A DNA stretch of 64,000 bases. Origin: Falsiroseomonas frigidaquae (GTDB lineage Bacteria > Pseudomonadota > Alphaproteobacteria > Acetobacterales > Acetobacteraceae). Position 1 is the stretch's first letter. Each line of letters opens with the position of its first letter. Location of the stretch: contig NZ_JAAVTX010000002.1 of assembly GCF_012163145.1 (NCBI RefSeq), positions 558,001 through 622,000 on the forward strand, read 5' to 3'. Below are positions 9,721 to 58,929 of this stretch, piece after piece. Under the pieces are notes generated by a model. That model was not told where the DNA came from, made no database searches, and saw nothing but the letters and a program-made list of their open reading frames with translations. The translations under genes and the position numbers were made by a program.

Positions 9721-10241
9721 TGGCAGGACCCTACGGACCCCGCGGCGCAGATCCGCGCGCCATCGGTCCAGGTCGCGCCGCTGAGGATCACCCCGGTGAA
9801 ATCCGTGCCGCCGAGCATCGCGCCGGTCAGGTCGGCCTCCGTCAGGTCGGCGCGGTACATCCGGGCGCGGCGCAGGTCGGCGCGCACCAGCCTGGCACCG
9901 CGCAACGTGGCGCGGGTGAAATCGGCCTCCCGCAGCGTTGCGCCGGTCAGGTCGGCGCCGTTCAGGTCGGAGGAGACGAAGCGCACATAGGACCCCTCCA
10001 CCCCGACCAGCCTGGCGCCGGCGAGCTGGGTGCGTTGCAGGGAGGCATCGCGCAGCTGCATGCCGGAAAGGTCCGCCTCGTTCAGGTCCCGCCCATCCAG
10101 GCTGCAGCGCCGCCAGCTCACCCCTGGGCCGGGCGGATCCGTGCAGGCGGCGAGCGCCGGCACGGCGCCCAGAATCAGCGCCAGCAGCACCATCAGGGGC
10201 AGGCGCCAGGGGCGATGGGTGGTGTGATGACGTCCGCGCAC
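9717..10241 (-). CDS. Pentapeptide-repeat protein, probably exported
   Basis: About 174 residues from a GTG start at 10241; an ATG at 10193 (MVLLALILG) or at 10304 is possible. The N-terminal hydrophobic stretch (LPLMVLLALILGAVPALA) looks like a signal peptide, and the basic residues before it favour the longer start. About 100 residues of A(D/N)LxX pentapeptide repeats follow (DLNGADLTGATLREADFTRA), forming a right-handed quadrilateral beta-helix. The function is unknown: pentapeptide proteins include DNA-mimic gyrase protectors, but an exported one would not reach gyrase. The stop overlaps the uvrD start by 4 nt. A single Cys pair (ICAAGSVGSC) closes the chain. Confidence 0.75.
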   Translation of the reverse strand: MRGRHHTTHRPWRLPLMVLLALILGAVPALAACTDPPGPGVSWRRCSLDGRDLNEADLSGMQLRDASLQRTQLAGARLVGVEGSYVRFVSSDLNGADLTGATLREADFTRATLRGARLVRADLRRARMYRADLTEADLTGAMLGGTDFTGVILSGATWTDGARICAAGSVGSCQ

Positions 10242-38167: not shown

Positions 38168-38178
38168 GGCGCAGAATC

Positions 38179-42639: not shown

Positions 42640-45600
42640 CTACCCCACGCTCCACGACCACCAATGCTGTTCGTAGCGGTTGTCGTTGAAGACCTGGAAG
42701 GGCGGGTCGGACTCCAGCCCCAGCCTCTCGCGCTGCCGCCGCGCCTGGGCCTGCGCCGCGCGCAGCTGGCCGACGCCCCAGATGCGGCGGGGGATGCCGC
42801 TGCCGGGGCGGCGCACATCATCCGGCACTTCCTCGAAGCCACGGATCAGCGCAAGGGCGCGGCGGGTTTCCTGCCAGGCGGCGGCGGCCCAGTCCGGCCG
42901 GTCCTCCCGCCGCATCAGGTGGTCCGACAGCGCGGCGGCCAGGTCGTAATCGGTCGAGAGATGGCCGCAATAGGATTTGCGATAGCCGAAGCAATCCCGC
43001 AGCAGCGCCGCCGCATCCTCCGGCGCGCGCTGGCCGAAGGCGTAGTCCATGCCCGCCGCGCTGCGCCACAGGTACCAGGCGCGCAGATCCTCGATCTCCG
43101 CCCGCGGATGCTGCGTGGTGCGCTCCTCCGGGTAGTTGTTGAAGATGCCGAGCGGCGCGGGAATGTGGATGCTGCGGATATGCGGCATCACCCGGTTCTT
43201 GAACTCGGTATCGCCGGCGGCCCGGAAGCCCTCGTCGTAATAGCCGAAGCGGTCATGGATCGAGCGGCGGTACAGCGCGCCGACCCAGGACAGGTAGCAG
43301 GTCTCGAGATAGACCAGGTCCTGCCGGTAGCCGGTCCGGTCATAGACCATGATGTCGTTGTCGTAGACGCCATGCTTGTCGACATTGGTGACGATGCTGT
43401 CCGCCATGGCCCAGTCGGCGGAGCCATCGGCATCCAGCGCATCGGCCAGCTGGCGCAGCGCATCCGGGTGCAGCCCCTCATCGGCGCCGAGGAAGGCGAG
43501 GTAGGGCGCGCGGGCCAGCTTGATGCCGCGGTTCCAGGCGGCCTGGATCGTCTCCCGCTCCGCCGAGCGGGCGAAGCAGATCGGCAGGCCGGGATGCGCG
43601 GCGGCGAAGGCGGCGAAGGCGGCCTGCTCATCGGCCGGGGAATTGCTGTCCACCAGCACCACCTCCAGCCCGCCCTGTTGCGCGAGCGTCTGTCGCGCCA
43701 GCATCCCCAGCAGCGTCGGCAGCTTGTCGGCGGCATTGTAGAGCGAGGCGATGACGCAGGCGCGCGGCTGGGCCCTGATGCCGCTCCGCGGTTGGGCCGC
43801 CAGGTCGCGCCGGTCGTCCAGCACGGCGAGCGGCAGATCGGGCTTGCTGCGGTTGCGGGCATAGGCGCCGCGCATCAGCTCCAGGCAGCGGGCCGGGCCA
43901 TCCGCCGCGCCATCGAACATCGCCTCCGCCGTCAGGGCCTCCTGCAGGAAATTGTTCTGGCGCAGGGTATGGGCGATGAAGGGCAGGTCGCCGCGCGGGT
44001 CGCCGCCGACCCAGCGCAGCGTCCGCAGCAGGTAGGTGGCCGCGGTCAGCGGGTTGCCGAGGCGGCGTTCCAGCCGCGCCATCTCCCGGAACAGCACCAC
44101 GCGGTCGGCCAGATGGGTGCCGACGGCGGCTGTCAGGCAGCGCAGCTTGGCCTCGATCTCCTCCGCCCTGCGTTCCGGCATGGCGCGCAGCCCGGCCAGC
44201 AGCGGCGGCAGGTGGGACAGGTTGCGGATCTGGCCATAGGCCTTTTCGTCGAAGCCGCCGCGCAGCCGGATGGCGCCATCCACCTGCCCGACCAGCGCAC
44301 CGCGACGGGAATGGCCCGCCGGCGTGGTGGCGATGGCGCGCAGCCGGCCGGCGATATCCAGCATCTCGGACCGCGCCCGGTGCGGCAGCATGCGCCAGGC
44401 GCCGCGAAGGGCGCGCTTCACCGGCAGCACGCGATGCGCCCGCCGCGCCCCGGCGAGCAGCGCCATGCGGCCCTGTTCCAGCCGCGCTTCCGCCGAGTGG
44501 CGCAGGCCCTGCGGCGGGTCCATCAGCGCGGCCGAGAGCTGCGCCACGATCTCGATCGCTGCCTGCTGCGCCCGCACATCGGCGGCGCCCTGGCGCTGGT
44601 GCAGCCGGTCGAGCCCCGACACATCCGGCACCAGCGCCGCCTGGTGCAGCGCCTGCGCCAGCCGGTCCCGATACGCGTCGTAATCGCCCAGCACCTGCGC
44701 CGCCGCCGCCGCCGCGCCACGCGCGCAATCGATGTCGACCACCGCCCAGTCCAGCCCGGGCACGTTGGCGCGCAGCCATTGCGCGACGCCGGCGCGGTCC
44801 GAGACCAGCGTCGGGCAGCCGCGGCAGATCGCCTCCAGCGCCGTCAGGTTGAAGGTGTCGTGGCGGGAGGGCAGCAGCAGCAGGGATCGCCCGCCGAGCA
44901 GCGCCTGCACCGCGTCGCGCCCCATCGGGCCGGTCATCTCCAGCCGCGCCTCCAGGCCACGCCGGCGGGCGGCGGCGCGCAACAGCGCCTCCGAGCCCTG
45001 GCCGAGCCGGTTCGGGCCTTCCGGGCCGATCAGCAGCAGCCGCCGGTAGCTGTCCGGGTCGAGGCCCCAGGCGGCGTCGAGGAACAGGTCCGGGCCTTTC
45101 CACTTCTCTCGCCGCCCGATGAAGGCGAGGTCCGGCGCGCCATCCTTGCGGTCCGCGGCGCGCGGCGCGGGGACGCCGGTGATCACCAGCGGGTCGAGCA
45201 GCGTGACCGGCGCCGGGATGCGGCGCTGCCAGGCGCGGGCGTAGCTTTCGCTGATGGCGTAGCGCCCATCCGCGGCGCGGAACTGCAGGTGTTCGCGCAC
45301 CCGCAACTCGGCCAGGATACGGCCCTCATCCTGCCCGGTCGGCCAGCCGGCGCGGAAGGCGTCGGACAGGGTGCCGTGCAGGGAGACGACGACCCGGTCC
45401 ACCGTGCAGCCTTCCGCCGCGAGCGCGAGCCGGATGAAGGGGCCGAGCTGGGTATAGTCCGGCACGTCCACCACATCGAAATCCACGCGGCCGCAGGCCA
45501 GGGCGACGGAGCGCGCCATGTTGCGGGCGATGCGCCAGACCCACAGGAAATGGTGCAGCGTCTCCGGCACCTCCTGCGGCAGAGCCAGCAGCTGGTCCAC

Positions 45601-45798
45601 CAGCGGGATGGCGCGCGCATTGGCCGGGCGCTGCGCGTCGGCGGCTTCCTCGCGGCGGAAGTAGAACCAGCTATCCTGCGGCCGGTGCAGCATCATCCTG
45701 CGGAACACCGCCTGGCCGCCGCCGACCTGGCCGAACAGGTCGGCATCCAGCACCAGGATCCGGCGGCCTGCCGATCCGGAGGTCTCGGCAGACGACAT
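42640..45798 (-). CDS. Large two-domain glycosyltransferase (GT4 plus GT2)
   Basis: 1052 residues. The N-terminal GT-B part has VGGGQAVFRRMML, a FIGRREKWKGPDLFLDAAWG stretch, and PSRHDTFNLTALEAICRGCP near residue 320. About 270 mainly helical residues follow, then a C-terminal GT-A (GT2) domain with VIASLYNAADKLPTLLGML, VVLVDSNSPAD, and ARAPYLAFLGADEGLHPDAL in place of the DXD region (near residue 800). It is the last gene of the nine-gene leftward heptose operon, 2 nt after hddA, so it probably transfers the activated heptose or a neighbouring sugar. ATG 45798 was chosen for this tight spacing. Confidence 0.87.
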   Translation of the reverse strand: MSSAETSGSAGRRILVLDADLFGQVGGGQAVFRRMMLHRPQDSWFYFRREEAADAQRPANARAIPLVDQLLALPQEVPETLHHFLWVWRIARNMARSVALACGRVDFDVVDVPDYTQLGPFIRLALAAEGCTVDRVVVSLHGTLSDAFRAGWPTGQDEGRILAELRVREHLQFRAADGRYAISESYARAWQRRIPAPVTLLDPLVITGVPAPRAADRKDGAPDLAFIGRREKWKGPDLFLDAAWGLDPDSYRRLLLIGPEGPNRLGQGSEALLRAAARRRGLEARLEMTGPMGRDAVQALLGGRSLLLLPSRHDTFNLTALEAICRGCPTLVSDRAGVAQWLRANVPGLDWAVVDIDCARGAAAAAAQVLGDYDAYRDRLAQALHQAALVPDVSGLDRLHQRQGAADVRAQQAAIEIVAQLSAALMDPPQGLRHSAEARLEQGRMALLAGARRAHRVLPVKRALRGAWRMLPHRARSEMLDIAGRLRAIATTPAGHSRRGALVGQVDGAIRLRGGFDEKAYGQIRNLSHLPPLLAGLRAMPERRAEEIEAKLRCLTAAVGTHLADRVVLFREMARLERRLGNPLTAATYLLRTLRWVGGDPRGDLPFIAHTLRQNNFLQEALTAEAMFDGAADGPARCLELMRGAYARNRSKPDLPLAVLDDRRDLAAQPRSGIRAQPRACVIASLYNAADKLPTLLGMLARQTLAQQGGLEVVLVDSNSPADEQAAFAAFAAAHPGLPICFARSAERETIQAAWNRGIKLARAPYLAFLGADEGLHPDALRQLADALDADGSADWAMADSIVTNVDKHGVYDNDIMVYDRTGYRQDLVYLETCYLSWVGALYRRSIHDRFGYYDEGFRAAGDTEFKNRVMPHIRSIHIPAPLGIFNNYPEERTTQHPRAEIEDLRAWYLWRSAAGMDYAFGQRAPEDAAALLRDCFGYRKSYCGHLSTDYDLAAALSDHLMRREDRPDWAAAAWQETRRALALIRGFEEVPDDVRRPGSGIPRRIWGVGQLRAAQAQARRQRERLGLESDPPFQVFNDNRYEQHWWSWSVG

Positions 45799-45800
45799 GC

Positions 45801-46793
45801 TCAACCCCTGAGGATGGTGGCGCCGAGCGTATCGAGCCCGACGGGAATGAGGGAATGCTCCGCCATGCGCAGCCGGAAGCCGGCCTGCAGATCCGGCGGC
45901 ACCAGCATCAGCAGGAAGCCGCCGGCGCCGGCGCCGCACAGCTTGCCACCCAACGCCCCGGCGGCACGCGCCTTGTCGTAAAGCGCGTCGATCTGCGGCG
46001 AAGACACCTTGGAGGACAGGCGCTTCTTCGTCTCCCACCCCTCATGCAGCATGGCGCCGAATTCGCGCAGCAAGGCGCCTGGCTCTGTACCCTCCAGCAC
46101 CGTCTGCGCCTGGTCCACCAGGGCCAGCAGATGCGTGAGATCCTTGTCCGAGGCACCGGACTTGGTCTTCGCCATCTGCTCGTCCAGCGTGGCGGATGCG
46201 AAGCGCGTCATGCCGGTATAGACCAGGAACAGCGAGGAGGTCAGCGCCGCCTGGCATTCCGCCGTCATCTGGATCGGGCTGATGCGGGTGCGGTTGCCCT
46301 CGAAGTCGAAGCGGTTCAGACCGCCGAAGGCCGCGTGGTGCTGGTCCTGCACGCCGCAATTCTCGCCGAGCAGGCCGCGCTCCACATGCACCGCCTCCCG
46401 CGCCAGATCCATCTTGGTGGCACCGCGGCCCAGCAGCTCGAACAGCAGGTTCACGAAACCCACGGTGAAGGAGGAGGAGGAACCAAGGCCGCTGCGCGCC
46501 GGCAGATCCGCCATGATGGAGATGTCGAGCGGGCTGCCATAGCCGTAGTGGCGGATCGCCTCCCGCACCACCGGATGCTCGATCGCGTCCAGCTCCCGCA
46601 CCTGCTCCATCTTCGAGTAGGAGATGCGGTAGCGGTAATCCAGGATATTGGTCAGCCGCAGCGCCGCGACATAGACATACTGGTCGATCGCCATGCCGAG
46701 CACGGCGCCACGGGCACGCGCGAAATATTCGGGGTAGTCCGTGCCGCCGCCGAAGAAGGACACGCGCAAGGGCGTGCGGGAGACGGTCATCAT
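45801..46793 (-). CDS. hddA: D-glycero-alpha-D-manno-heptose 7-phosphate kinase (HddA)
   Basis: 330 residues, GHMP kinase superfamily. Motif 1 PLRVSFFGGGTDYPEYF near residue 8, ATP-binding motif 2 LPARSGLGSSSSFTVGF near residue 97, motif 3 GGKLCGAGAGGFLLML near residue 296. The GGGTDYPEYF opening is characteristic of HddA, which makes the alpha-anomer of heptose 1,7-bisphosphate for the GDP-heptose route (the beta route uses HldE). The ATG overlaps the upstream reductase-like gene by 4 nt. The other three activities of the route are encoded in the same operon. Confidence 0.92.
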   Translation of the reverse strand: MMTVSRTPLRVSFFGGGTDYPEYFARARGAVLGMAIDQYVYVAALRLTNILDYRYRISYSKMEQVRELDAIEHPVVREAIRHYGYGSPLDISIMADLPARSGLGSSSSFTVGFVNLLFELLGRGATKMDLAREAVHVERGLLGENCGVQDQHHAAFGGLNRFDFEGNRTRISPIQMTAECQAALTSSLFLVYTGMTRFASATLDEQMAKTKSGASDKDLTHLLALVDQAQTVLEGTEPGALLREFGAMLHEGWETKKRLSSKVSSPQIDALYDKARAAGALGGKLCGAGAGGFLLMLVPPDLQAGFRLRMAEHSLIPVGLDTLGATILRG

Positions 46794-47728
46794 CGGTGGG
46801 CGTTTCCTGCTTGGCGACCAGCCAGGATCTGCGAAACGCCCTGCTCCACACTCAGCTTCGGGCGCCAGCCGGTGCGCTCCAGGAAGCGCGTGGAATCCAG
46901 GCTCTTGTAGCCGGCGCCCTGGAAGGAGCCGGGCGGATGCACGATGCGCGCATCCCAGTGCAGCGCGGCCAGGATCGCCTTGGCGCAGTCGCCGATCTCG
47001 ACCGGGGCGTTGGGGGTCACGTTCAGCACGCAGTCGGTGAAGGCGGCGTCGGCGGCGAGGATGGCGTCGATCTGGTCATGCACATGCAGAAGGTCGCGTA
47101 CCGTGTGCGGGTTTCCCCACACCTCGAATTCCATCGCGCCACTGGCCTGGGTGCGGATGGCGCGGTCGATCATCGCGGCCATGAAATGCGCGCGGGTATC
47201 CTCGGTATGCGCATGCGGGCCATAGACGGTGGCGAGCACGCAGTGCAGCCAGCGCATGTCATATTGCTTGCCGAACACCTCGCAGCCCGTCGCGAGCAGT
47301 TCCTTGGCCAGCGCGTAGCCCTGCACGGAGGGGTGCGGCCGACCGATGCCGAATTCCGCCTCCGGCGTCGCATGGTCCGCTTCCGCATAGGTGCAGGAGG
47401 AGCCGAGCGAGACCAGCTTGGCCTGCGGCTGATGCGCCCGCCAGGCATCCAGCACGTTCAGGTGGATGCGCGCATTGTCGCGCAGCAGTTCCCCCTGGAT
47501 GCCGTACTGGATCTGCCCGGTCCGCTGCTTTGTGATCGCGTGAAAGATGCGCCCGGCCTTCGGCGCATCGCGCAGGGCGCGGTCCACGACGGTCGCATCG
47601 GTGAAATCCCCGGCGGCGCGGCCGATGGCGTGCACCGGCCAGCCCTCGGCGGTCCAGCGCTCCACAAGGTTCCGGCCCAGGAAGCCATCGGCGCCGAGGA
47701 TGATGGTCGGGCTATCGGCGTAGGGCAT
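46790..47728 (-). CDS. SDR-family GDP-sugar epimerase/reductase (GDP-fucose synthase-like)
   Basis: 312 residues. Rossmann GADGFLGRNLVERW near the N-terminus, catalytic SLGSSCTYAEAD and GYALAKELL (Tyr and Lys), then TVYGPHAHTEDTRAHFMAAM and VWGNPHTVRDLLHVHD. This layout is that of GDP-L-fucose synthase (Fcl/WcaG) and of the heptose reductases such as DdahC in Campylobacter capsule loci, which finish GDP-6-deoxyheptoses. It would epimerise and/or reduce a GDP-keto-heptose. It overlaps the preceding SDR gene by 17 nt with ATG 47728, and hddA by 4 nt. Confidence 0.87.
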   Translation of the reverse strand: MPYADSPTIILGADGFLGRNLVERWTAEGWPVHAIGRAAGDFTDATVVDRALRDAPKAGRIFHAITKQRTGQIQYGIQGELLRDNARIHLNVLDAWRAHQPQAKLVSLGSSCTYAEADHATPEAEFGIGRPHPSVQGYALAKELLATGCEVFGKQYDMRWLHCVLATVYGPHAHTEDTRAHFMAAMIDRAIRTQASGAMEFEVWGNPHTVRDLLHVHDQIDAILAADAAFTDCVLNVTPNAPVEIGDCAKAILAALHWDARIVHPPGSFQGAGYKSLDSTRFLERTGWRPKLSVEQGVSQILAGRQAGNAHR

Positions 47729-48725
47729 CGCGGTACCAGGCAAGAGTTGCGGCCATGCCGTCATCCAGGCTGCGGAAGGGCGCCAGCCCCGGCAGTAGCT
47801 GGCGCAGCTTCGCCGCCGCGGCGCGGCGTACCTTCACGCCACGGTTCCCGGCGGCGGGCGGCGAGGTCAGCTTGATCGGGCGCTGGCGGCCCGCCGCGCG
47901 CATCGCGCATTCGGCCAGGTCGCGCACCGTGCGGGTTTCGCCGAAGGCCAGGTTCACCGCCTCCGTCACGCCCGTCAGCTTCAGCGATTCGACGAAGGCC
48001 GCGGCGGCATCGCCCGAATAGATGAAGTCGCGTTCCGCATCCGGATCGCCGCGCACCTCGAATTCCGGCGCATCGCCGGCGGCGCGGATGACGAAGGCGG
48101 TGGCGACATGCGCCTCGTCCTCATCCAGCGTGTCATGCGGGCCGTAGGGATTTGTCAGGCGAAAGCTGATGGTGCTGATCCCCATCCGCCGACGCCACAA
48201 TTCGGCGGTAATCTCGCCCCAGCGCTTCGACCAGGCATAGGCGGCCTCGCCATCATGCGGCCAGTCGTTCAGGTCGAGCGCAACGGCATCATCCTGTACC
48301 GCCCAGGATGCGGGATAGACGGCGGAGGAGGAGGCGGCGCGGACTTCGGAAATGCCGCGCGCCATGGCGAAGCGATAGACCTGCTCCGTCATCGAAAGGT
48401 TGGCGGACAGGATTTCCGCCTGCTGCTTGCCAAACTGGGAAGCGAAGTAGCGATAGGAGGCGACATGGATGATCGCCGTGCCCTGCGGCAGCGCCGGCAG
48501 CGAATCCACCGCATCGGCCGCGACGGTCTGCGTGCAGCCCGGCACCGCGGTGCCGGAGGCGTTGACGCCGATCACCACGGGCACAAGGCCCTGCAGCGCA
48601 TCCACCACATTGCGACCGATGAAGCCGCTGGCGCCCCAGACGACCACCGCCGGCGGCATGGCTTCGTGTGGCGGCCGATTCAGACCTTCGCGCCCTGCGG
48701 CGCTACGGTCATCGGACGCACTCAT
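47712..48725 (-). CDS. SDR-family NAD-dependent sugar epimerase/dehydratase
   Basis: 337 residues. The nucleotide-binding motif VVWGASGFIGRNVVDAL starts at about residue 28; catalytic Tyr and Lys lie in AYAWSKRWGE; upstream is a Ser-rich active-site strand (RAASSSAVYPASW); FRLTNPYGPHDT and ERDFIYSGDAAAA mark the sugar-binding part. It acts on an NDP-sugar, presumably the GDP-heptose series made by neighbouring genes; whether it oxidises, epimerises or reduces is not clear. The start overlaps the methyltransferase stop by 4 nt. It belongs to the nine-gene operon. Confidence 0.85.
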   Translation of the reverse strand: MSASDDRSAAGREGLNRPPHEAMPPAVVVWGASGFIGRNVVDALQGLVPVVIGVNASGTAVPGCTQTVAADAVDSLPALPQGTAIIHVASYRYFASQFGKQQAEILSANLSMTEQVYRFAMARGISEVRAASSSAVYPASWAVQDDAVALDLNDWPHDGEAAYAWSKRWGEITAELWRRRMGISTISFRLTNPYGPHDTLDEDEAHVATAFVIRAAGDAPEFEVRGDPDAERDFIYSGDAAAAFVESLKLTGVTEAVNLAFGETRTVRDLAECAMRAAGRQRPIKLTSPPAAGNRGVKVRRAAAAKLRQLLPGLAPFRSLDDGMAATLAWYRDALRR

Positions 48726-49993
48726 GCGTCCGCCTTGCCGTAGGCGCGCACCTTCGGGATCGGCACCACAAGTTCGCCGCCACCCGCCATATAGGCGCGT
48801 TCTTTCACCAGAAATTCATTGATGAAGTTCCAGGCGAGCACGAGATAGGCGTCCGGCCGCGCGCCTTCCTCCGCCTCGATCGGGATGCGCACGCCGGGAA
48901 TGGCGAGGCCGACCTTCATCGGATTCTTCTCGACCGCCTTCTGCACCAGCTCCGGCCCGATGCCGAAGCTGTTCAGCAGCGTGGCGCCCTTGGCCGGCGC
49001 GCCATAGGCCCAGACCGATTTTCCGGCATCCTTGTAGCCCTGCAGCAAGGCGACGAGGCGGGTCCGCAGATCCAGCACATTGCCGGCGAAGGTGCGGTAG
49101 GTCTCGATCTCGCCGAAGCCCTTGCGGGTTTCCTCGGCCTGCATCGCCCGCACGCTATCCTGCACCGGGCGGGTGCCCTTGCGGGCGACATGCGCCTCGA
49201 TGCTGCCGCCATGGATATCCACCAGATCGGCGGAGAACACCTCCAGCCCATGCTGCCCGAGCAGGGCCGAGAGTGACTTCAGCGTGTAGTAGCAGAGATG
49301 CTCGTGATAGACCTGATCGAAGGCGGTGTTCTCCACCATGCCGCCGAGGTAGATCGCCTGCACGACGAAGACGCCGTCGCTATCCAGCAGCGCGGCGATG
49401 CCTTCCACCACGCTGTGCAGTTCCTCCAGGTGGAAGAACACGCCGGCGGCAGTGATGATCTTCGCCGGGCCGAATTCCTTGCGAATGTCGGCGCAGCATT
49501 CCGCGTTGAAGAAGCGGTGCCAGGTCGGCACGCCGGCATCCTGCGCCAGCTTCGCGACATTGCCCGCCGCCTCCACGCCCAGCACGCGGGCGCCGCTGAA
49601 CGCCCATTGCTTCAGCCAAGTGCCGTCATTGCTGCCGATATCGACGACGAGGTCGCCCGCCTTCACGTCATAGGCGGCGGCGATGCGCTGGCTGGTCTCG
49701 AGGAAATGCGCCGGCAGCGTCTTCGTGGTGCCGGAGACGTAGGGATAGTCGGTGAACATCGATTCCTTGGGAATCGTATGGTCGATCTGCACCATGGTGC
49801 AGTCCCGGCAGAAGCCGACGCGCAGCGGGTAGTGCGGCTCCACCCCCGGGGCCAGGTCCGGGCGGACGAGCCGGTTGCAATGCGGCTGGTCGCCGAGGTC
49901 GATCACCAGCTCGACCCGGCGGGACCCGCAGCAGCGGCAGGCCATGTCCAGCATCACGCCGGGGGCGGGAACCACCATGCGGCTGTCAGACAT
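48722..49993 (-). CDS. Zinc-finger SAM-dependent sugar C-methyltransferase-like protein
   Basis: 423 residues with the three-part layout of NDP-sugar C-methyltransferases. The N-terminal putative zinc-binding domain has CRCCGSRRVELVIDLGDQPH and FCRDCTMVQ (four Cys). A SAM-binding core has VVDIGSNDGTWLKQW near residue 120, and VYHEHLCYYTLKSLSALLGQ. The C-terminal domain has VWAYGAPAKGATLLNSFG. Relatives methylate a carbon next to a keto group of a nucleotide-linked sugar. Here the likely substrate is a keto-heptose. It is in the nine-gene operon and overlaps neighbours by 4 and 8 nt. It carries no signal peptide. Confidence 0.9.
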   Translation of the reverse strand: MSDSRMVVPAPGVMLDMACRCCGSRRVELVIDLGDQPHCNRLVRPDLAPGVEPHYPLRVGFCRDCTMVQIDHTIPKESMFTDYPYVSGTTKTLPAHFLETSQRIAAAYDVKAGDLVVDIGSNDGTWLKQWAFSGARVLGVEAAGNVAKLAQDAGVPTWHRFFNAECCADIRKEFGPAKIITAAGVFFHLEELHSVVEGIAALLDSDGVFVVQAIYLGGMVENTAFDQVYHEHLCYYTLKSLSALLGQHGLEVFSADLVDIHGGSIEAHVARKGTRPVQDSVRAMQAEETRKGFGEIETYRTFAGNVLDLRTRLVALLQGYKDAGKSVWAYGAPAKGATLLNSFGIGPELVQKAVEKNPMKVGLAIPGVRIPIEAEEGARPDAYLVLAWNFINEFLVKERAYMAGGGELVVPIPKVRAYGKADA

Positions 49994-50918
49994 TGGCGAA
50001 GCGCCCGTTGCGGATCATGCGGTAGCCCTTGATCAATTCCTGGATACCCTTGTCCAGGCCATGGTCGGGCATCCAGCCGGTGGCTTCCAGCTTGTCGTTG
50101 GAGACGATGTAGTCGCGCTTGTCGGGGTCCTCCCCCACTGGCGCCTCCAGCCAGACGAAGCCGGGCACGTGCTTGGCGATGCGGTCGCAGAGCTGCGCCT
50201 TGGACAGGTTGGCCTCCGACAGGCCCACATTATAGGCCTGCTGGCGCATCGATTCGACGTTGTCGATGCCGTGCAGGAAGGCCTTCACCACGTCGCGGAT
50301 GTGGATGTAGTTGCGCCGGAAATGCGCCTCGAACAGCACCACGGCGCGGTCATTCACCGCGCGCCAGGTGAAGTCGTTCACCAGCAGGTCGAGCCGCATG
50401 CGGGGCGCCATGCCGAACACGGTCGCCAGGCGGAAGGACAGGGAATTCGGATGCGACAGCACCGCCTCCTCCGCATCCACCTTGGTGCGGCCATAGAGCG
50501 AGACGGGGCGCAGCGGAGTCTCCTCCGTGCAGAAGGCATTGCCCTCGCCCACGCCATAGCCGGAATTGGTGGTGGGATAGGCGATCAACTGCTGCTTGCC
50601 GGCGCGCTTCACCAGTTCCACCACCGCATCACGGTTCAGCGAGGTGGCGCCGATCTCGTCCCGCGCGCAGAGCGGCGCGCCGACCAGCGCGGCCAGCGGC
50701 AGCACGATATCCGCCTCCCGCAACAGCGGCTCCACCACCCGCATGTCGCGGCAATCGCCGCGCACCGGAGTGAAGTTCGGATCGGCGCAGGAATGGGCCA
50801 GGAAAGGTTCGCCCGCGGCGAAAGTATCCAATACGGTCACCTGCCAGCCGCGGCCGAGAAGTGCCGGAACCAGCATCGAACCGATGTAGCCGGCGCCGCC
50901 GGTGACGAGCACGCGCAT
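49986..50918 (-). CDS. SDR-family NAD-dependent nucleotide-sugar epimerase/dehydratase
   Basis: 310 residues. TGGAGYIGSMLVPALLGRGW near the N-terminus, active-site strand AYPTTNSGYGVG, and Tyr/Lys in SLYGRTKVDAEE near residue 145. The body resembles UDP-glucose 4-epimerase relatives, with ATVFGMAPRMRLDLLVNDF and NYIHIRDVVKAFLHGI. I chose ATG 50918 because GAGGGAAAG lies about 10 nt upstream; ATG 50939 would add 7 residues. It overlaps the methyltransferase gene by 8 nt. There is an 82-nt gap upstream to the glycosyltransferase gene, the longest gap in the operon, where a second promoter could lie. Confidence 0.88.
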   Translation of the reverse strand: MRVLVTGGAGYIGSMLVPALLGRGWQVTVLDTFAAGEPFLAHSCADPNFTPVRGDCRDMRVVEPLLREADIVLPLAALVGAPLCARDEIGATSLNRDAVVELVKRAGKQQLIAYPTTNSGYGVGEGNAFCTEETPLRPVSLYGRTKVDAEEAVLSHPNSLSFRLATVFGMAPRMRLDLLVNDFTWRAVNDRAVVLFEAHFRRNYIHIRDVVKAFLHGIDNVESMRQQAYNVGLSEANLSKAQLCDRIAKHVPGFVWLEAPVGEDPDKRDYIVSNDKLEATGWMPDHGLDKGIQELIKGYRMIRNGRFANV

Positions 50919-51000
50919 GTAATTCTTTCCCTCGGGCATCGCGGATTCTAGCCGCGTATAGGGTCTGCCGAACCCCTGGGCAACCTGGGGTGGCAGGCGA

Positions 51001-52257
51001 TCATGGCGCCGTGGTGGCGCTCTCGGGGGCATCCATCAGGGCGCGCAACAGCGCATCCGGATTGTGCCGTTCCCGCCAGGCCGGGGCCGCCTGGCGGGCG
51101 GCCCGGGTCAGTTCCGGCAGGCGGTCCAGCGCCAGCGCCAGGGCGGCGCCGGCGGGCGCGCCGGCCGGGATGGCCACCGCCCGCTCCGGCCCGGCCGCCT
51201 CCGCCATCCAGCAGCCGGCCGGCACCACCGCGGGCAGGCCAAGCGCCAGCGCCTCCGCCAGGATGCCGCTGCTGCGGGCGCCGTAGGTCGGGCCGTCATA
51301 GGGCAGCAGCAGCAGGTCGGCCCCCGCCAGCAGCGCCGCGTAATCCGCCGGGTCCAGCGCCCGTTCCACCAGGGCTACGTCCCGCCGGGCGCGCAAGGCG
51401 CGATGCGCGCGCTGCACCAGCGGATCGGCCTCCGCCCCCACCCGGCCGGATTGCACGGTGAAGCGGGCGCGGCCGGCCACGGCGGCGATCGCCTCGGGCA
51501 ATTGTGCGAAACCCTTTTCCGCCCGGGCACCCCCGGCGAAGACCACATGCGGCAGCGCCTCCTGCTGGCGCGGTGCCGGCGGCGGCACCACCACGGGCAG
51601 CGGCACCGGTCGCACCGGCAGGCCGGACAAGGCGGCGAATTGCGCGGCCAGCGCCTCGGTATCCGCGAACAGGTGCAGCGCCGGGCCGAAGCGGGCGTGC
51701 AGGCGGCGGAGAAGCTGGGGCAGCCGTTCCGGCGCCGGGTCATCCGCCTCCATCTCCGCCGGCATGCGGCGCAGCACCACCAGCAGCTGTACCGGCGGGA
51801 AGCCCGGCGCGGTGGCGACGGAATGCAGGTTGGCGCCGGACACGCTGTGCAGCAGCAGCAGGTCGCCCTCCCCCACCCCCAGCGCCGCCAGCGCGGTGGC
51901 GAGTTCCAACCCCAGCGGGTCCGCCGCCCCTGCCTGGCGCAGCCGCCGCCGCAGCGCCCGCAGCGGCGGCGCGACCAGGCCGGCGAGCGGCACCGGCAGC
52001 CAAGCCGCCAGCCCGAAGGCCAGCCGCCGCGCCAGGCCACCACCGCCGGCGCTCTGGTAGCTGGCGCCGAGCACCGGCTGGGCCGGGATGCGGCCGGCTT
52101 CCAGCGCGCCGGTGAAGCCGCGGCCGGCCAACACAAGGGGCAGCAGCCCGGCCGCCTGCGCGGCTTGCGCCACCGCCACGCTGTAGGACAGATGGTGGCC
52201 CAGCGGCCCGTTCAGGCCGGGATCGGCGATGACGAACCGCCTTCCCGCCTGCGTCAC
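51001..52257 (-). CDS. Glycosyltransferase, GT-B fold
   Basis: 418 residues from a GTG (MTQAGRRFVIADPGLNG) that overlaps the upstream hddC-gmhB stop by 4 nt. It begins with a donor-like N-domain (NGPLGHHLSYSVAVAQAAQA) that resembles the N-terminus of the 845-residue transferase (both have GHHLSY/FVGHHFSY). C-terminal FAGGARAEKGFAQLPEAI and YGARSSGILAEALALGLPAV are GT4-like, with the E of the E-x7-E motif. It is presumably part of the glycan assembly served by the heptose operon; specificity is unknown. Confidence 0.85.
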   Translation of the reverse strand: MTQAGRRFVIADPGLNGPLGHHLSYSVAVAQAAQAAGLLPLVLAGRGFTGALEAGRIPAQPVLGASYQSAGGGGLARRLAFGLAAWLPVPLAGLVAPPLRALRRRLRQAGAADPLGLELATALAALGVGEGDLLLLHSVSGANLHSVATAPGFPPVQLLVVLRRMPAEMEADDPAPERLPQLLRRLHARFGPALHLFADTEALAAQFAALSGLPVRPVPLPVVVPPPAPRQQEALPHVVFAGGARAEKGFAQLPEAIAAVAGRARFTVQSGRVGAEADPLVQRAHRALRARRDVALVERALDPADYAALLAGADLLLLPYDGPTYGARSSGILAEALALGLPAVVPAGCWMAEAAGPERAVAIPAGAPAGAALALALDRLPELTRAARQAAPAWRERHNPDALLRALMDAPESATTAP

Positions 52258-53468
52258 GCCCGCAGCAACCCCGCCACGAAGGCGTCCAGGTCGCCACCGG
52301 GGAACAGGTGGCCCGGAATGCCGCAGGCGGCGGCGGCGGCGACGTCGCTGTCCTTGTCGCCGACGAGGAAGGAGCCATCGGCCTCGATCGGCCAGGTTCC
52401 CAGCAGGTCCTCGATCATCCCCGGGTTGGGCTTGCGCCGCCGGCAATCCAGGCGATAGGCGGCGAGCGGCGCCTCCGGGTGGTTCGGGCTGTATTCGAAG
52501 GCATCGACATGCGCCCCGGCATCCGCGAGCACGCCGGCCATCCAGCCATGCATGACGCCGACCTGCGATTCCGGGAATTTGCCGCGGGCGACGCCGGCCT
52601 GGTTGGTGACCACGAAGACGAACAGCCCGGCATCGTTCAGCCGCTTCACCGCCGCAGCCGCGCCCGGCATCCAGCGCACCTGGGCCGGGTCGTGCGGCCA
52701 GCCGGTATCCTCGATCAACACGCCATCGCGGTCCAGAAACACGGCGCGGCGGCGGGCCATGGCGGGAATCACGGTCTGCGCCGCCGCCAGGTCCTCCGGG
52801 ATGCCGATATCGAGGAAGGCGCCGTCATACAGGCCGCCGCGCAGCAGCCCGGCCTGCGCCAGCTTTGGGAAGACATCCGATTCCAGCGACACGGCGCCGG
52901 GCCCGATATGGTCCAGGATCGGCTTGCGCAGCCAGTAGATGCCGCCATTGATCGGGCCACCGGCACCAGGACTGGAGGCATCCGGGCTGCGGGCGGCGAA
53001 GCCGTTGATGCGCCCGGCCTCATCCACCGCCACCGTGCCGTAGCGGGCGCCGGGCGCGGTGCGGCGCAGCGCCAGCGTCGCCAGCGCATCGCCCGCCTGC
53101 AGTGGCAGGTCCAGCAGGTTCACGTCGAAGCGCGTGTCGCCGTTCAGCAGCAGGAATTCATCCTCCAGCCGGTCGGCGAACAGCAGCAGCCCGCCGCCGG
53201 TGCCCAGCGGCTGCGGCTCGATCACCACCTCCACCCGGCTGCCGCGGATGGTCCGGCCGTCGTAGCGGTCGGCGATGGTCTGGCCGAGATAGCCGGCCAG
53301 AAGGGTGATGCGCGGAATGCCGAAGCGCGCCACTTCCTCGACCAGCCAGTCGAGGAAGGGCCGGCCGCCGACATCGACCATCGGCTTCGGGATGGAATCG
53401 GTCAGCGACCCCAGCCGCGTGCCGCGGCCACCGACCAGGATGGCCGCCTGGCGCACCCCCTCAGGCAT
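52254..53468 (-). CDS. Fusion: heptose 1-phosphate guanylyltransferase (HddC) plus heptose 1,7-bisphosphate phosphatase (GmhB)
   Basis: 404 residues. Residues 1-235 are a nucleotidyltransferase with GGRGTRLGSLTDSIPKPM (Lys28) and LLNGDTRFDV. Residues 241-404 are a HAD-IIIA phosphatase with DxD at Asp246/Asp248 (FLDRDGVLIED), VVTNQAGVARG and GDKDSD at 370. It would remove the 7-phosphate from heptose 1,7-bisphosphate and attach GMP to the resulting 1-phosphate, the last two steps of GDP-heptose synthesis, in one chain. The GmhB zinc loop is degenerate: at the positions of Cys92, His94, Cys107 and Cys109 of the E. coli enzyme it has Ser327, Asn329, Cys342 and Arg344. It overlaps gmhA by 8 nt. 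Confidence 0.9.
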   Translation of the reverse strand: MPEGVRQAAILVGGRGTRLGSLTDSIPKPMVDVGGRPFLDWLVEEVARFGIPRITLLAGYLGQTIADRYDGRTIRGSRVEVVIEPQPLGTGGGLLLFADRLEDEFLLLNGDTRFDVNLLDLPLQAGDALATLALRRTAPGARYGTVAVDEAGRINGFAARSPDASSPGAGGPINGGIYWLRKPILDHIGPGAVSLESDVFPKLAQAGLLRGGLYDGAFLDIGIPEDLAAAQTVIPAMARRRAVFLDRDGVLIEDTGWPHDPAQVRWMPGAAAAVKRLNDAGLFVFVVTNQAGVARGKFPESQVGVMHGWMAGVLADAGAHVDAFEYSPNHPEAPLAAYRLDCRRRKPNPGMIEDLLGTWPIEADGSFLVGDKDSDVAAAAACGIPGHLFPGGDLDAFVAGLLRA

Positions 53469-54033
53469 CGGCCAGGCGCGCTTCGACCGCGGCGCAGTAG
53501 CAATGATAGAAGACCAGGTGGACCTGCTGGATGGCGGGGGTGGAGCGCGACGGCACCGCCAGCAGATGGTCCGACAGCGCCGCCATCCGCCCACCGCCCT
53601 CGCCGGTCAGGCCGATGGTCGCCATGCCGAGCTTTCGTGCCGCCTCGAAGGCCAGCACCACATTCTCGGAATTGCCGGAAGTGGACAGGCCGAGGATGAC
53701 GCCGCCGGCCTCGCCATAGGCTTCGACCTGGCGGGAGAAGACGGTGGCGAAGCTGTAGTCGTTCGACCAGGCGGTCAGCACCGCCGGGTTGGAGGACAGG
53801 CAGATCGCCTTCAGCGCGCGCCGTTCGCGCAGGAAGCGGCCGACCATCTCCCCGACGATATGCTGCGCATCGGCGGCGGAACCGCCATTGCCGCAGACCA
53901 GCAGCGGCCTGTTCGCGGCCAGCGCGGTGACGGTGGCATCGACCGCCGCCTGCATCACGGAATCCAGCCCCTGGGCGCGCGTGGCGGCCAGAAGCGTCTC
54001 GGCCTCCGCCAGCCAGGCATCGAGCGTGATCAT
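53461..54033 (-). CDS. gmhA: Sedoheptulose 7-phosphate isomerase
   Basis: 190 residues, SIS-domain isomerase that converts sedoheptulose 7-phosphate to D-glycero-D-manno-heptose 7-phosphate. LVCGNGGSAADAQHIVGEMV near residue 46, the LSTSGNSENVV phosphate loop near residue 115, and a C-terminal HLVFYHCYCAAVEARL are all diagnostic. It is the first gene of the nine-gene operon (ATG 54033). The divergent spacer of 124 nt to the methyltransferase gene on the other strand must hold the operon promoter. The protein has the normal length for GmhA. Confidence 0.95.
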   Translation of the reverse strand: MITLDAWLAEAETLLAATRAQGLDSVMQAAVDATVTALAANRPLLVCGNGGSAADAQHIVGEMVGRFLRERRALKAICLSSNPAVLTAWSNDYSFATVFSRQVEAYGEAGGVILGLSTSGNSENVVLAFEAARKLGMATIGLTGEGGGRMAALSDHLLAVPSRSTPAIQQVHLVFYHCYCAAVEARLADA

Positions 54034-54157: not shown

Positions 54158-55150
54158 ATGCGAGCCTGGATAATCGACCTTATCCGGCGGGCCACGGGCA
54201 CCACGGCCCTGACCCGCCAGATCGAGGCGCTGGAGATCCGGCTCGCCGCTCTGGGCGCGACGCTGGCCCATCCGGCACCGCCCGCCGCCCCGCCCGCAGG
54301 CCTCACCGCGGCGGACCGGGACGCGATCCTGCACCAGGTCAACGACACCAATCACAATCTGTGCCTGCACCTGAAGGAAGCGATGCGGCTGCGCGAGCTG
54401 GCCAACCGAGACCTTTTCCTGGCCACAGACCGGCTGGCGCGGATCCTGCCGGCCACGCCCCTGGTGTTCGAGGCCGCGCGACCCGTGGCGATGGATACCG
54501 ACGACCACCTGTTTCCCTGGGGCGCGGCGCAGGACAACACGCCTTCGCCGCGCTTCGTCGCCGCCTGCAAGCGCCATTTCCCCGGCCGCGCCCTGACCTT
54601 CCTGGATCTCGGCTGTTCCGGCGGCGGGCTGGTGCTGGATTATCCTGCGTGGCCACGCCGCCTATGGCGTGGAAGGCAGCGATGCGCCGCTGCGCGCGCA
54701 GCGGGCGGAATGGCGGCTGCTGCACCACAATCTGTTTACCGGCGACATCACCCGCCCCTTCACCCTGCGGCCATCCAGCCCGGCCGGCCCTGCCGCGCCG
54801 CCGGTGGCCTGCGACATCATCTCGGCGTGGGAGGTGATGCAGCATATCGCGGATGCCGACCTGCCAGGCCTGTTCGCCAAGCTGCACACGCATTTGAAGC
54901 CGGACGGGCCGTTTGTCGGCTCCATTGCGCTGGGCCGGAGGACAACCCGGTGACCTGGGCGCGCCACCACCGGACCGTACAGCCGCATGCCTGGTGGCAG
55001 GCGGGCTTCCCCGGGCTCGGCCTGCCGATGCTGGACCGGCACGCCTTCGCCTTCGAGGATTTCTGCCGCGGCACCAGCAACGGCCCGATCGACGAGAACT
55101 ACCGCAGCAATCCCGAGATGGGCTTCCACTTCGTCGCCCGACGCCCCTGA
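54158..55150 (+). pseudogene. SAM-dependent methyltransferase with two compensating frameshifts
   Basis: The N-terminus (MRAWIIDLIRRATGTTALTR) and core start (FLDLGCSGGGLVLD, about residue 150) are in one frame. From about 54645 the family sequence moves to another frame (RGHAAYGVEGSDAPLRAQRA, later ISAWEVMQHIADADL), then returns at about 54935 with EDNPVTWARHHRTVQPHAWW. The first junction fits loss of 2 nt and the second loss of 1 nt; because the shifts cancel, the original frame stays open to 55150. It could be a decayed gene or sequencing indels. A related FkbM gene follows 16 nt later. If intact, it would methylate a sugar of the neighbouring glycan. Confidence 0.75.
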
Positions 55151-55166
55151 CCTGACGGAACGAACC

Positions 55167-56363
55167 ATGCGCCAGTCGACCCTCGACATCCTGCGCCGCG
55201 CCACCGGAACCACCGTCCTCTGCCAACAGATGGCGCTGCTGGAGGAGGAGGTGGCTCGGCTGCACCAGGTGCCGCGCGGCGCCCCGCCGCAGCCGGCACT
55301 GGACCGGATCGCGCGCTACGCCGATTTCCCGCTGCAGACCTGGTGGGAGCGCTCATTGTGGGAGCCGGTGGTGCAGCTTGCGGTGCGCGACCATGTGCGG
55401 CCCGGTGACATCGCCTTCGATGTCGGCGCCAATGCCGGCGCCTTCGCCATGCAGATGTCCCGCCAGGCCGGCCCGCGCGGCACCGTCTGCGCCTTCGAGG
55501 CCAGCCCCCGCATCATCGGCCGCACACAGCACAATCTGCTGAACGCGGCCTGCCACAATGTCACGCTGTACCATCGCGCCGTCTGGAACCGCAGCGGCGA
55601 CTTCGTGCATATCGCGGAGGGCAGCCACCTGAACGACCGCGTCGAGACCGGCGCAGGCGGCACCCCGGTGCCCACCCTGGCGCTGGATGATTTCATCGCC
55701 GCCACCGGCCTGACGCCCAGCTTCATCAAGATGGACATCGAAGGGGCGGAGCTGGATGCGCTGCGCGGCAGCGCCCGGCTGATCGCGGAGGGCCGTCCGA
55801 TCATGGCGCTGGAACAGGCGCCCGACGACATGCGCTGCCACGAATTGCTGGTCGCGGCCGGCTACCTCGCCATGGATCTCGGCAGCTACAGGCGGATCAC
55901 GCGCGGCGAGGATTTCGCGAATCCGACCGGCGTCAACAACGTGCTGTTCGTGCCGGAGGAGAAGGCCAGCGCCTCGCCCTATTTCGACCCGCGGCAGGAG
56001 ATGGTGGCGAAGCTGGAGGCCTGCGCCTTCACCCGGGACGCCGCCGGCGGTGCCCGCCTGGCGCAGCCGATGGACCTGCCCGCCGGGCGTTACCTGGTGC
56101 GCGCGGATTTCTCCGCCAGCGGCCGGGACAACGAGGTCTATGCCGGCGTCGATGCGGATGGCGAGACGGTGTTCCGCTACCATACCTTCACCGCCTTCAT
56201 GGCGGAGTGCTACCGCGACTGGGTGGTGCAGCTGGATCGTCCCGGCCGCATCGCGCCCTTCCTGCGCTTCCTGAACGGCAGCGATGCCACGCTGGACTGG
56301 CGCGGGGCGGAGGTGATCCGCCTGCCGGCCTTCGACAACGTCGCGCCGCCGCTGATCTTCTAG
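55167..56363 (+). CDS. FkbM-family methyltransferase with C-terminal extension
   Basis: 398 residues. N-terminal coiled segment (LDILRRATGTTVLCQQMALL), then SAM-binding DVGANAGAFAMQMSRQAG near residue 88 and FkbM landmarks FIKMDIEGAELDALRG near residue 188 and NVLFVPE. From about residue 280 an extra domain (MDLPAGRYLVRADFSASGRD and following) looks like a beta-rich carbohydrate-binding or capping module. FkbM enzymes O-methylate sugars or small molecules. The RRATGTT motif is shared with the gene just upstream. It probably decorates the glycan made by the divergent operon. Confidence 0.88.
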   Translation: MRQSTLDILRRATGTTVLCQQMALLEEEVARLHQVPRGAPPQPALDRIARYADFPLQTWWERSLWEPVVQLAVRDHVRPGDIAFDVGANAGAFAMQMSRQAGPRGTVCAFEASPRIIGRTQHNLLNAACHNVTLYHRAVWNRSGDFVHIAEGSHLNDRVETGAGGTPVPTLALDDFIAATGLTPSFIKMDIEGAELDALRGSARLIAEGRPIMALEQAPDDMRCHELLVAAGYLAMDLGSYRRITRGEDFANPTGVNNVLFVPEEKASASPYFDPRQEMVAKLEACAFTRDAAGGARLAQPMDLPAGRYLVRADFSASGRDNEVYAGVDADGETVFRYHTFTAFMAECYRDWVVQLDRPGRIAPFLRFLNGSDATLDWRGAEVIRLPAFDNVAPPLIF

Positions 56364-56416: not shown

Positions 56417-57535
56417 TCAGTCGTACCAACCAACATCCAGCGTCGCGACTTCCCCGAAGGGCACGCGGCGCTGGGCGGCCATGCGGATGATGGGCCAAGT
56501 GGTCCAGGGCATGGCGAGCAGCGGCATCGGGTCGCGCGCGCGCCAGCAGACGTCCGGCGTGGTCAGAAGGGCGCGCAGATTTTGCCCGAAAAGGCCGCCG
56601 CGGAACAGCGAAAGCTGTGTCTCCGTCAGGCAGGACCAGAATTGTTGCAGCCGCGTCTCCGGCCGGTGGCGCGGCCTGGGCGCGGCGGGGTCCACCACCG
56701 CGCGGGCCAGATCCGCGGCTTCGAAGAAATGCAGGCCGCTGGTGGTGCGCGGGTTGCACTCCAGGCCCCAGGGGCGGCCTGCCTCGTCCACCATCAGGTC
56801 GAAGGCGATGAAGCCGGACCAGTTCGCGGCGGCCACGAAGCGGCGCACCCAATCCTCGATGGCGGGATGCGCCACGCGTTCGAAGGCCACGGCGACGGAG
56901 CCGGCCATCAGCATGCCGCGATAGACGGTGGTGGCAAGGACGCGGCCCTGATGCGCCAGCGAACAGGTGCTGAACTCCGCCCCCGTCACGCGGCGCTGCA
57001 CGATGCAGGGCACCTCCGCCGCCGGCAGCGCGGCCCCCTGCGGCAGCATCACCACGCCGCGGCCGGAGCAGCCATGCACCGGCTTCACCACCACCGGCCC
57101 GGCCGCCGCCAAGCCCTCGCCACGCGGATCGCCGAGCGCGGCGGAGTCCGGCACGTCCAGCCCGTGGCGCTGCGCGAAGGCGATGAAGCCGCCCTTGTGG
57201 TGCAGCGGCAGCAGCACCTCCGGCGGCATCGTCAGCACGCGCACCCCTTCCGGCAGCAGAGGCGGCAGGTGGGCGACATGCATCGTCTCCTCCGACACCG
57301 GCAGCACCAGCTCCACGCCCTCATCCCGCACCAGCTGGGCCAGGGCCGCGAGATAGGCCGCCTTGCTCTCCGCCGGCGCCGGCACGCGGATGGATTTCGC
57401 GACGGCACGGGACGATCCGCAGAGATGGCGTGCGAAAGGCTCGGCGACCACGACGCGCCAGCCAATCGCCGAAAATCCGCGCGCGAGGTCGAGCGCCTTG
57501 GGCAGGCGGCCCAGCGTCAGCAGCACCGTCCGCAT
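56417..57535 (-). CDS. ATP-grasp domain protein (carboxylate-amine ligase-like)
   Basis: 372 residues. ATP-grasp fold: an N-terminal Rossmann-like lobe (RTVLLTLGRLPKALDLARGF), then the nucleotide-binding lobe with AGPVVVKPVHGCSGRGVVML near residue 145, and the metal-binding FDLMVDEAGRPWGLECNPRTTSG near residue 258. It would activate a carboxylate as acyl-phosphate and join it to an amine or thiol. The ATG shares one base with the stop of the P450 gene (TGATG), so the two are coupled. Substrate unknown. No peptide precursor gene is visible. Confidence 0.85.
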   Translation of the reverse strand: MRTVLLTLGRLPKALDLARGFSAIGWRVVVAEPFARHLCGSSRAVAKSIRVPAPAESKAAYLAALAQLVRDEGVELVLPVSEETMHVAHLPPLLPEGVRVLTMPPEVLLPLHHKGGFIAFAQRHGLDVPDSAALGDPRGEGLAAAGPVVVKPVHGCSGRGVVMLPQGAALPAAEVPCIVQRRVTGAEFSTCSLAHQGRVLATTVYRGMLMAGSVAVAFERVAHPAIEDWVRRFVAAANWSGFIAFDLMVDEAGRPWGLECNPRTTSGLHFFEAADLARAVVDPAAPRPRHRPETRLQQFWSCLTETQLSLFRGGLFGQNLRALLTTPDVCWRARDPMPLLAMPWTTWPIIRMAAQRRVPFGEVATLDVGWYD

Positions 57536-58929
57536 CAGGCAGCCGTCACCCGCATCCGGATCTGCCGCGCCGGGCGCGTGGTCAGCCGCGCGGCGGGGCG
57601 GACCTGCTGCGGTTCGGCGAGATGGAAGTCGAAGCGGCGGAACAGGCGGGCGATCAGCAGCACGGCTTCGACCGTCGCGAAGGCGGCGCCGGCGCAGATG
57701 CGCGGGCCGATGCCGAAGGGGATGTAGGCGCCCGGCGTCATCTCCGCCTCGCGTTCCGGCAGGAAGCGGTCGGGGTCGAAGGCGTTGGGGTTGGTCCAGT
57801 AGCTTCGATGCCGGTGCAGCAGCCAGGGCGCCACCATGATAAGCGCGCCACGCTTCACGCGGTAATCGCCGATCCGCGTGGCTTCGTTCGCCACGCGCGG
57901 CAGGAAGGTGATAGGCGGATACAGGCGCAGCGTTTCCCGGAACACATTGCGGGTGAAGACCAGGCGCTTGGTGTGCTCGAAGCCGATCGGCCCGTCCCCG
58001 CACACCGCCGCCACTTCCGCCCGCAGCCGCGCCACGAAGTCCGGCCGCGAGGCCAACAGATAAAAAACCCAGGTCAGCGCGCTGGCGCTGGTCTCGTGCC
58101 CGGCCAGGAACAGCACGCCAAGCTGGTCGATCAGCTCCTCCCGCGTGAAGGCGCGCCCATCCACATCATGCGCGGCGACGACGGCGCTGGCGATGTCGTC
58201 GAAGCGCTGGCCGGCATCGAGGTGGCTGTCGAGCAGCTCGCCCAGGCTGCGGCGGATCAGCGCGCAGCTGTCCAGCACCGCCTGGGTCTGGGGGATGCGC
58301 GTCCAGGCGCGGTCCATGATCAGGCGGCGGATTTCCACCTGCGCGACGCTGCGTTCGAAGAAGGTGAAGGCGTCGAACACCTCATGCGCCACGCGGGATT
58401 GCAGGCTGGTGGAGAAGACGGAGCGGCAGATGATGTCCGCCGTCAGATGGCTCATCGCCAGATCCAGCGAGAAGCTCCCGGCCGAGGCGGCGGCTTCCGC
58501 CAGCGTGGCTTCCGCGGCTTCGATGCCGGCTTCCATGCAGGGGAAGGCGCGGTTCACCCGCATCAGCGTCAGCGCCGGGTCCATCATCTGCCGCTGGCGC
58601 TTCCAGGTGGCGCCGGAGCTGACGAAGATGCTGTCGCCGATCAGCGGCTCCAGCGCATTCACCATCAGATCCGATTTCGGGAAGATGCCATCCGCATCCA
58701 CCAGCACCTGGCGCACCAGCCTGGGCTCGTTCACCACCACGATGGACCGCCGCGAATAGCCCAGCGGGCCGATCGGCATGGTATAGGCCTCCGCCGGCAG
58801 CAGGCCGAGCAGATCCCCCTCCCCCTCCAGCAGCGCACGGAACAGCGCCACCACGGGGGATCGCGGCGTGGGGTGTGGCGGCACGAACGCCCCGCCCGGC
58901 CTGGCAGCGAAGCCTTCCATCGGCGCCAT
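57535..58929 (-). CDS. Cytochrome P450
   Basis: 464 residues. I-helix AGHETSASALTW with the acid-alcohol pair, ExxR in FRETLRLYPPI, and the heme-ligand loop FGIGPRICAG near residue 407 with the Cys ligand. No membrane anchor, so it is a soluble class I enzyme needing separate ferredoxin partners, none of which is nearby. It inserts oxygen into an unidentified substrate. It is translationally coupled to the ATP-grasp gene downstream. Its start faces the membrane-protein/crtD genes across a 68-nt divergent spacer. A start 3 codons later (58920) is possible. Confidence 0.92.
   Translation of the reverse strand: MAPMEGFAARPGGAFVPPHPTPRSPVVALFRALLEGEGDLLGLLPAEAYTMPIGPLGYSRRSIVVVNEPRLVRQVLVDADGIFPKSDLMVNALEPLIGDSIFVSSGATWKRQRQMMDPALTLMRVNRAFPCMEAGIEAAEATLAEAAASAGSFSLDLAMSHLTADIICRSVFSTSLQSRVAHEVFDAFTFFERSVAQVEIRRLIMDRAWTRIPQTQAVLDSCALIRRSLGELLDSHLDAGQRFDDIASAVVAAHDVDGRAFTREELIDQLGVLFLAGHETSASALTWVFYLLASRPDFVARLRAEVAAVCGDGPIGFEHTKRLVFTRNVFRETLRLYPPITFLPRVANEATRIGDYRVKRGALIMVAPWLLHRHRSYWTNPNAFDPDRFLPEREAEMTPGAYIPFGIGPRICAGAAFATVEAVLLIARLFRRFDFHLAEPQQVRPAARLTTRPARQIRMRVTAA

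Follow-up and report, generated by a model that had tools for sequence, protein, structure and literature searches.

The 64,000-nucleotide stretch of Falsiroseomonas frigidaquae DNA analysed here (the window, from a source assembly of 6.08 Mb) contains at 42640–54033 a leftward operon of nine genes in series, as defined by open reading frame (ORF) calls and profile searches, which is considered in the following as a candidate route to a C-methylated guanosine diphosphate (GDP)-heptose. From the high-coordinate end, the genes encode GmhA, a sedoheptulose-7-phosphate isomerase (53461–54033); a fusion of HddC, the GDP-heptose pyrophosphorylase, with GmhB, the bisphosphate phosphatase (52254–53468); GT1, a GT4-type glycosyltransferase with a GTG start and a weak, 30-bit match to PF13692 (51001–52257); SDR1, a short-chain dehydrogenase/reductase (SDR) predicted to be a GDP-heptose C4-dehydrogenase (49986–50918, or from 50939); MT, a predicted heptose C-methyltransferase (48722–49993); SDR2, a predicted C4-reductase that lacks the epimerase cysteine (47712–48725); SDR3, a GDP-fucose-synthase-like predicted epimerase and/or C4-reductase (46790–47728, or from 47764); HddA, a heptose-7-phosphate kinase (45801–46793); and GT2, a glycosyltransferase of 1052 residues (42640–45798). 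The original prediction had described such a nine-gene operon, with most junctions overlapping by 4–17 nt, four GDP-heptose activities, three SDRs, a zinc-finger C-methyltransferase-like protein and two glycosyltransferases. This description holds, save that HddC and GmhB form one fused protein and not separate genes, and that the second glycosyltransferase is a two-domain protein, GT4-like and GT2-like (PF00534, PF00535).

Six of the eight junctions overlap, by 8, 4, 8, 4, 17 and 4 nt with the first-named starts, and the remaining two are gaps of 82 nt (GT1 to SDR1) and 2 nt (HddA to GT2). A check of gene order in relatives, proposed with the original prediction, finds the nine genes in identical order in six of seven genomes of the same genus, with MT 90–94% identical; the contig of the seventh stops inside GT1. 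Since the order is kept in these relatives, and its parts recur elsewhere, a chance arrangement is ruled out. The nearest named relatives by MT, in the same range of identity, are strains of Falsiroseomonas and Roseomonas. In 2-kb bins the G+C content of the operon is 0.66–0.74 as against 0.68–0.76 in the rest of the window, the lowest bin falling, by a slight margin only, in its SDR/MT part. Scans of the window for repeats gave nothing beyond short imperfect ones, and promoter- and terminator-like sites showed no excess over shuffled sequence.

The four domain families of the GDP-heptose route are carried by three ORFs. GmhA matches SIS_2 at 89 bits; the fused protein comprises an NTP_transferase domain (residues 8–232) and a HAD hydrolase domain from about residue 240; and HddA matches two sugar kinases in the PDB, at 141 bits one named only ‘putative sugar kinase’ and at 133 bits one named D-glycero-D-manno-heptose 1-phosphate kinase. 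A heptose precursor is favoured for the nucleotidyltransferase because it is fused to GmhB and shares its operon with HddA. GmhA is the sole PF13580 match in the source genome (E 0.001), and across 16 genomes of the genus the gmhA model finds one match in 14 and none in two; HldD and HldE model matches above cut-off sit elsewhere in the source genome. Given this single copy, the GmhA of the operon probably feeds both adenosine diphosphate (ADP)-heptose and GDP-heptose. The HddC–GmhB fusion is also seen beyond the genus (loci L047, L070, L094 and L095), and at positions 8194–9401 of locus L133 (genome G298) it adjoins GmhA, with no HddA homologue within the 20 kb read.

SDR1 scores 380 bits against PDB entries 6vo6 and 6vo8, with the next family at 84 bits, and 171 of 308 residues aligned with 6vo6 are identical (55.5%); assignment as a 4,6-dehydratase or as a uridine diphosphate-glucose 4-epimerase is ruled out by score. 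If 6vo6 is, as we take it to be, Campylobacter Cj1427, then the closest full-length homology of SDR1 is to the Cj1427-type GDP-heptose C4-dehydrogenase, and on this strong homology SDR1 is predicted to have the same activity. Cj1427 yields 4-keto-GDP-heptose, holding reduced nicotinamide adenine dinucleotide (NADH) tightly and turning over with alpha-ketoglutarate as the driver (PMC10680097). By its grouping with this dehydrogenase, SDR1 would supply the ketone needed for C-methylation. In a scan of phage families SDR1 matched only as a generic nucleotide-sugar epimerase, and MT had no match.

The C-methyltransferases of the family to which MT belongs require a 4-keto sugar as substrate. MT has the three-domain architecture of Methyltransf_13, Methyltransf_23 and Methyltransf_14 (Pfam), and its ten PDB matches are all named D-mycarose 3-C-methyltransferase, sugar 3-C-methyltransferase or TcaB9; these named relatives favour C3 of a 4-keto sugar as the predicted site of methylation. 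The residues C19, C22, C62 and C65, presumably the zinc cysteines, and Y229, E231 and H232 of the Y-x-E-H motif, presumably catalytic, are kept. In a FastTree phylogeny, from which short or split matches (L117–L119) were left out, MT falls in a clade of 34 tips (support 0.944) separate from ten paralogues and two PDB enzymes. Genus loci L071–L077, which come from the same genomes as L087–L090, L096, L106 and L121, do not enter the trees and residue tables. Locus L110 holds two C-methyltransferase paralogues (at 9725 and 11271), 57% and 45% identical to MT, flanking one heptose gene set; the second joins the MT clade at support 0.984, and possibly performs a second methylation there.

For the finishing steps there are two candidates, compared here over alignment rows of at least 80% coverage. 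SDR3 conserves all seven checked positions of Escherichia coli GDP-fucose synthase, with the mapped residues Ser107, Cys109, Tyr136, Lys140, His179 and Arg187 the same in all 24 rows of at least 47% identity; 14 more distant rows have, in most or all cases, Lys for Arg and changes to Ser, Thr or Gly before the Cys. SDR2 has Ala at the Cys109 position and retains the Tyr, Lys and His in 25 of 25 rows, such that one half of the Cys109/His179 pair is gone and the other kept. According to PMC7949155, epimerisation in GDP-fucose synthase draws its general acid and its general base from this pair, and heptose relatives without the Cys are C4-reductases. SDR2 is not, therefore, classed as a GDP-fucose synthase and could still serve as a C4-reductase; with these roles in mind, SDR3 may epimerise, and either SDR2 or SDR3 may reduce C4. 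AlphaFold models of SDR2 and SDR3 are confident (mean predicted local distance difference test scores of 88.7 and 91.0). A fold search with the SDR2 model places GDP-fucose synthase top, with 4-epimerases and GDP-mannose 3,5-epimerase scoring almost equally, and thus does not single out one role. A role for SDR2 as the ADP-heptose 6-epimerase is ruled out, since that enzyme has a 377-bit match elsewhere in the genome, as against 55–57 bits for SDR2.

Read together, the genes suggest that the operon probably produces a GDP-heptose with a C-methyl branch, which is then built into a glycan for export. In the fifth step of the proposed pathway SDR1 would, on its strong homology, oxidise C4 to give the 4-keto compound. 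In the sixth, by analogy with its family, MT would take an acidic proton from beside the ketone and add the methyl group of S-adenosylmethionine at C3, the favoured position, or at C5. SDR3, by means of its Cys/His pair, would in the seventh epimerise the acidic carbon that remains, with SDR2 or SDR3 reducing C4, and in the eighth GT1 and GT2 would transfer the sugar and the adjacent exporter move the glycan out. The regiochemistry and stereochemistry of the product are what we infer, with C3 favoured over C5. The same pathway could place the methyl group at C5, giving a 5-C-methyl heptose in which any epimerisation by SDR3 would fall at C3: a 4-keto group acidifies both neighbouring carbons, and NovU is a known member of the family that acts at C5. 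This variant is unlikely, given that MT finds 3-C-methyltransferases among the named PDB entries, within a comparison set that held no C5 enzyme.

The association of MT with the heptose genes extends well beyond the genus. A contig scan with two peptide patterns and an MT alignment, which was not exhaustive, gave MT homologues (52–94% identity) at 35 loci, seven in the genus and the rest in 28 genomes outside it, in records titled Alphaproteobacteria, Verrucomicrobia, Chloroflexi and Parcubacteria. Of these 28 genomes, 25 encode SDR1 (E 1e-80 or better) and 25 encode HddA (E 1e-30 or better; two of the frames contain a stop). Within the genus, SDR1 is found in eight of 16 genomes, exactly the eight with MT. 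All 18 MT genomes titled Alphaproteobacteria or families thereof (one titled only Proteobacteria) encode SDR1, as against 24 of 288 genomes sampled from the class (25 of 289 with that of the window; E 1e-50 or better), for which Fisher’s test gives p ~7e-18, a value that ignores relatedness and compares different cut-offs, the stricter being that for the MT genomes. As a control, HddA is absent from all nine loci read of MT paralogues (33–39% identity; nine of 12 such relatives). At the level of genomes this control is weaker, in that G303 has a 34% identical HddA homologue beside GmhA on another contig (L128), and there is a converse exception in L070, where HddA, a fused HddC–GmhB and SDR1-like proteins (34–35%) accompany an MT that is 37% identical and outside the clade. 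The arrangement of the genes also varies. SDR2 accompanies MT in 24 of the 35 loci, each of them from a record titled Alphaproteobacteria or kin; in Bosea (L097, L098) the heptose genes are differently arranged around GT2 and MT; and in Verrucomicrobia (for example L113) MT and a gene resembling SDR3 are placed opposite HddA, HddC and SDR1. Such rearrangement is hard to square with the simple descent of a single block and points to a functional link. The predicted C-methylated or otherwise remodelled GDP-heptose thus finds support both in the grouping of SDR1 with a GDP-heptose C4-dehydrogenase and in this co-occurrence of the MT clade with SDR1 and HddA across several phyla. One record, titled as a Methylocystis metagenome-assembled genome (L091), holds operon genes 67–89% identical to those of the window, by mis-binning or transfer.

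SDR1 is not confined to the company of MT. Of the 23 further SDR1 loci in the class sample (L047–L069; SDR1 of at least 49% identity, in stretches of 5–20 kb), 22 have HddA alongside, the sole exception being a 5.3 kb contig, and MT is nearby only in L057; further 4-keto-GDP-heptose products may accordingly be common in the class.

Several observations weigh against a C-methylated heptose. All four heptose activities miss their NCBIfam equivalog cut-offs: GmhA scores 181 bits against 209 (and 187 against 276), GmhB 124 against 178, HddC 116 against 300 and HddA 128 against 600. The identity of 6vo6 as Cj1427 goes beyond the PDB entry, which names a putative sugar-nucleotide epimerase/dehydratase. 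Y229, E231 and H232 of MT are common to all 47 alignment rows, paralogues included, and are for this reason markers of the family and no guide to substrate. SDR1 is missing from three of the 28 MT genomes outside the genus (those of L114, L118 and L120), HddA from three also (L105, L114 and L118), and, counted within the MT loci alone, 24 of the 35 hold SDR1 and 23 hold HddA, several of the contigs being short. Finally, the mannose-1-phosphate guanylyltransferase model gives the nucleotidyltransferase half of the fused protein 127 bits, slightly above its score as HddC. This last score, together with the occurrence of C-methyl hexoses in bacterial O-antigens (PMC9912281, PMC3204966), would fit a scheme in which MT and some of the SDRs act on a hexose of the same glycan, such as GDP-mannose, with the heptose left unmodified or only epimerised. 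Such a scheme is nonetheless decidedly improbable, in view of HddA’s near-constant place beside SDR1 in the class sample, the carriage of SDR1 and HddA by MT-bearing genomes and the lack of HddA at the paralogue loci. That the heptose genes serve mainly the ADP-heptose of the lipopolysaccharide core, with the SDR and MT genes as unrelated passengers, is very improbable indeed, for although none of the 16 genus genomes has more than one GmhA, and HldD and HldE have their genes elsewhere in the genome, the GDP route is the one to which HddA and HddC belong, and six genus genomes without MT keep GmhA with no HddA homologue near it in five of the six loci.

Turning to the surroundings of the operon, the neighbours on its low side all read rightward and encode an ATP-binding cassette (ABC) exporter, a glycosyltransferase and RadC. 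The exporter, a Wzm/Wzt-like permease and ATPase on the forward strand (37313–38916; ORFs 37313–38167 and 37960–38916; ABC2_membrane and ABC_tran), has homologues in 11 of the 35 MT loci (seven in the genus, L094, two Bosea and Candidatus Phycosocius), and its proximity would fit an exported polysaccharide, be it capsule, O-antigen or other glycan. On the high side lies a rightward gene for an FkbM-type methyltransferase (54987–56363), of a kind that recurs near the C-methyl-heptose genes in L057 (14461–15360), L107 (14549–15460), L094, L097 and L098, and which might O-methylate the same sugar. Beyond it, adjoining the glycan genes at 56417–58929, an ATP-grasp protein and a cytochrome P450 stand side by side, an arrangement kept in genus loci L071 and L073.

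The antibiotic-pathway sugar C-methyltransferases act on thymidine diphosphate (dTDP)-deoxyhexoses. MT shares with these enzymes (4rv9, a D-mycarose 3-C-methyltransferase, 5t64 and TcaB9) its fold family, zinc cysteines and Y-x-E-H motif, whereas its clade is tied to GDP-heptose genes. The modification of GDP-heptose in Campylobacter (PMC10680097) employs the same four activities, C4 oxidation by a Cj1427-type dehydrogenase, and remodelling with SDR reduction; the present operon differs in having a C-methyltransferase and, among its nine genes, no separate cupin-type epimerase, and the text of PMC10680097 has no word starting with ‘methyl’. According to PMC3204966, the virenose of Coxiella burnetii (6-deoxy-3-C-methyl-gulose) likewise carries a C-methyl branch and is proposed to be assembled on GDP for an O-polysaccharide, but it is a 6-deoxyhexose, not a heptose, proposed to arise from GDP-mannose via a 4,6-dehydratase. 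The 3-C-methyl-D-mannose of Helicobacter pylori, cited in PMC9912281, is a 3-C-methyl sugar that retains its terminal hydroxyl, and again a hexose. The claim of a new structure stands within the open-access literature, searches of which turned up no C-methyl heptose, although a structure in a subscription journal could be missed; nor was any paper on heptose in Roseomonas lipopolysaccharide found there. The enzyme types are known, and the C-methyl heptose product would most likely be a novel addition to the known pathways of GDP-heptose modification.

On balance we lean towards the view that the C4-dehydrogenase, the dedicated C-methyltransferase clade and the GDP-fucose-synthase-like SDR form a portable cassette, spread over the four groups named in the record titles, which makes an undescribed class of eight-carbon C-methyl heptoses for the exported glycans of environmental bacteria. 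Were this so, C-methylation would join deoxygenation and epimerisation among the ways in which bacteria diversify their heptoses, with GDP-heptose here taking the place of a dTDP-deoxyhexose as substrate. Named strains have the cassette, among them Falsiroseomonas stagni DSM 19981 (L121) and Bosea lupini LMG 26383 (L098), such that the prediction is open to sugar analysis, and the rule of co-occurrence would, if true, allow the sugar to be predicted from genomes.

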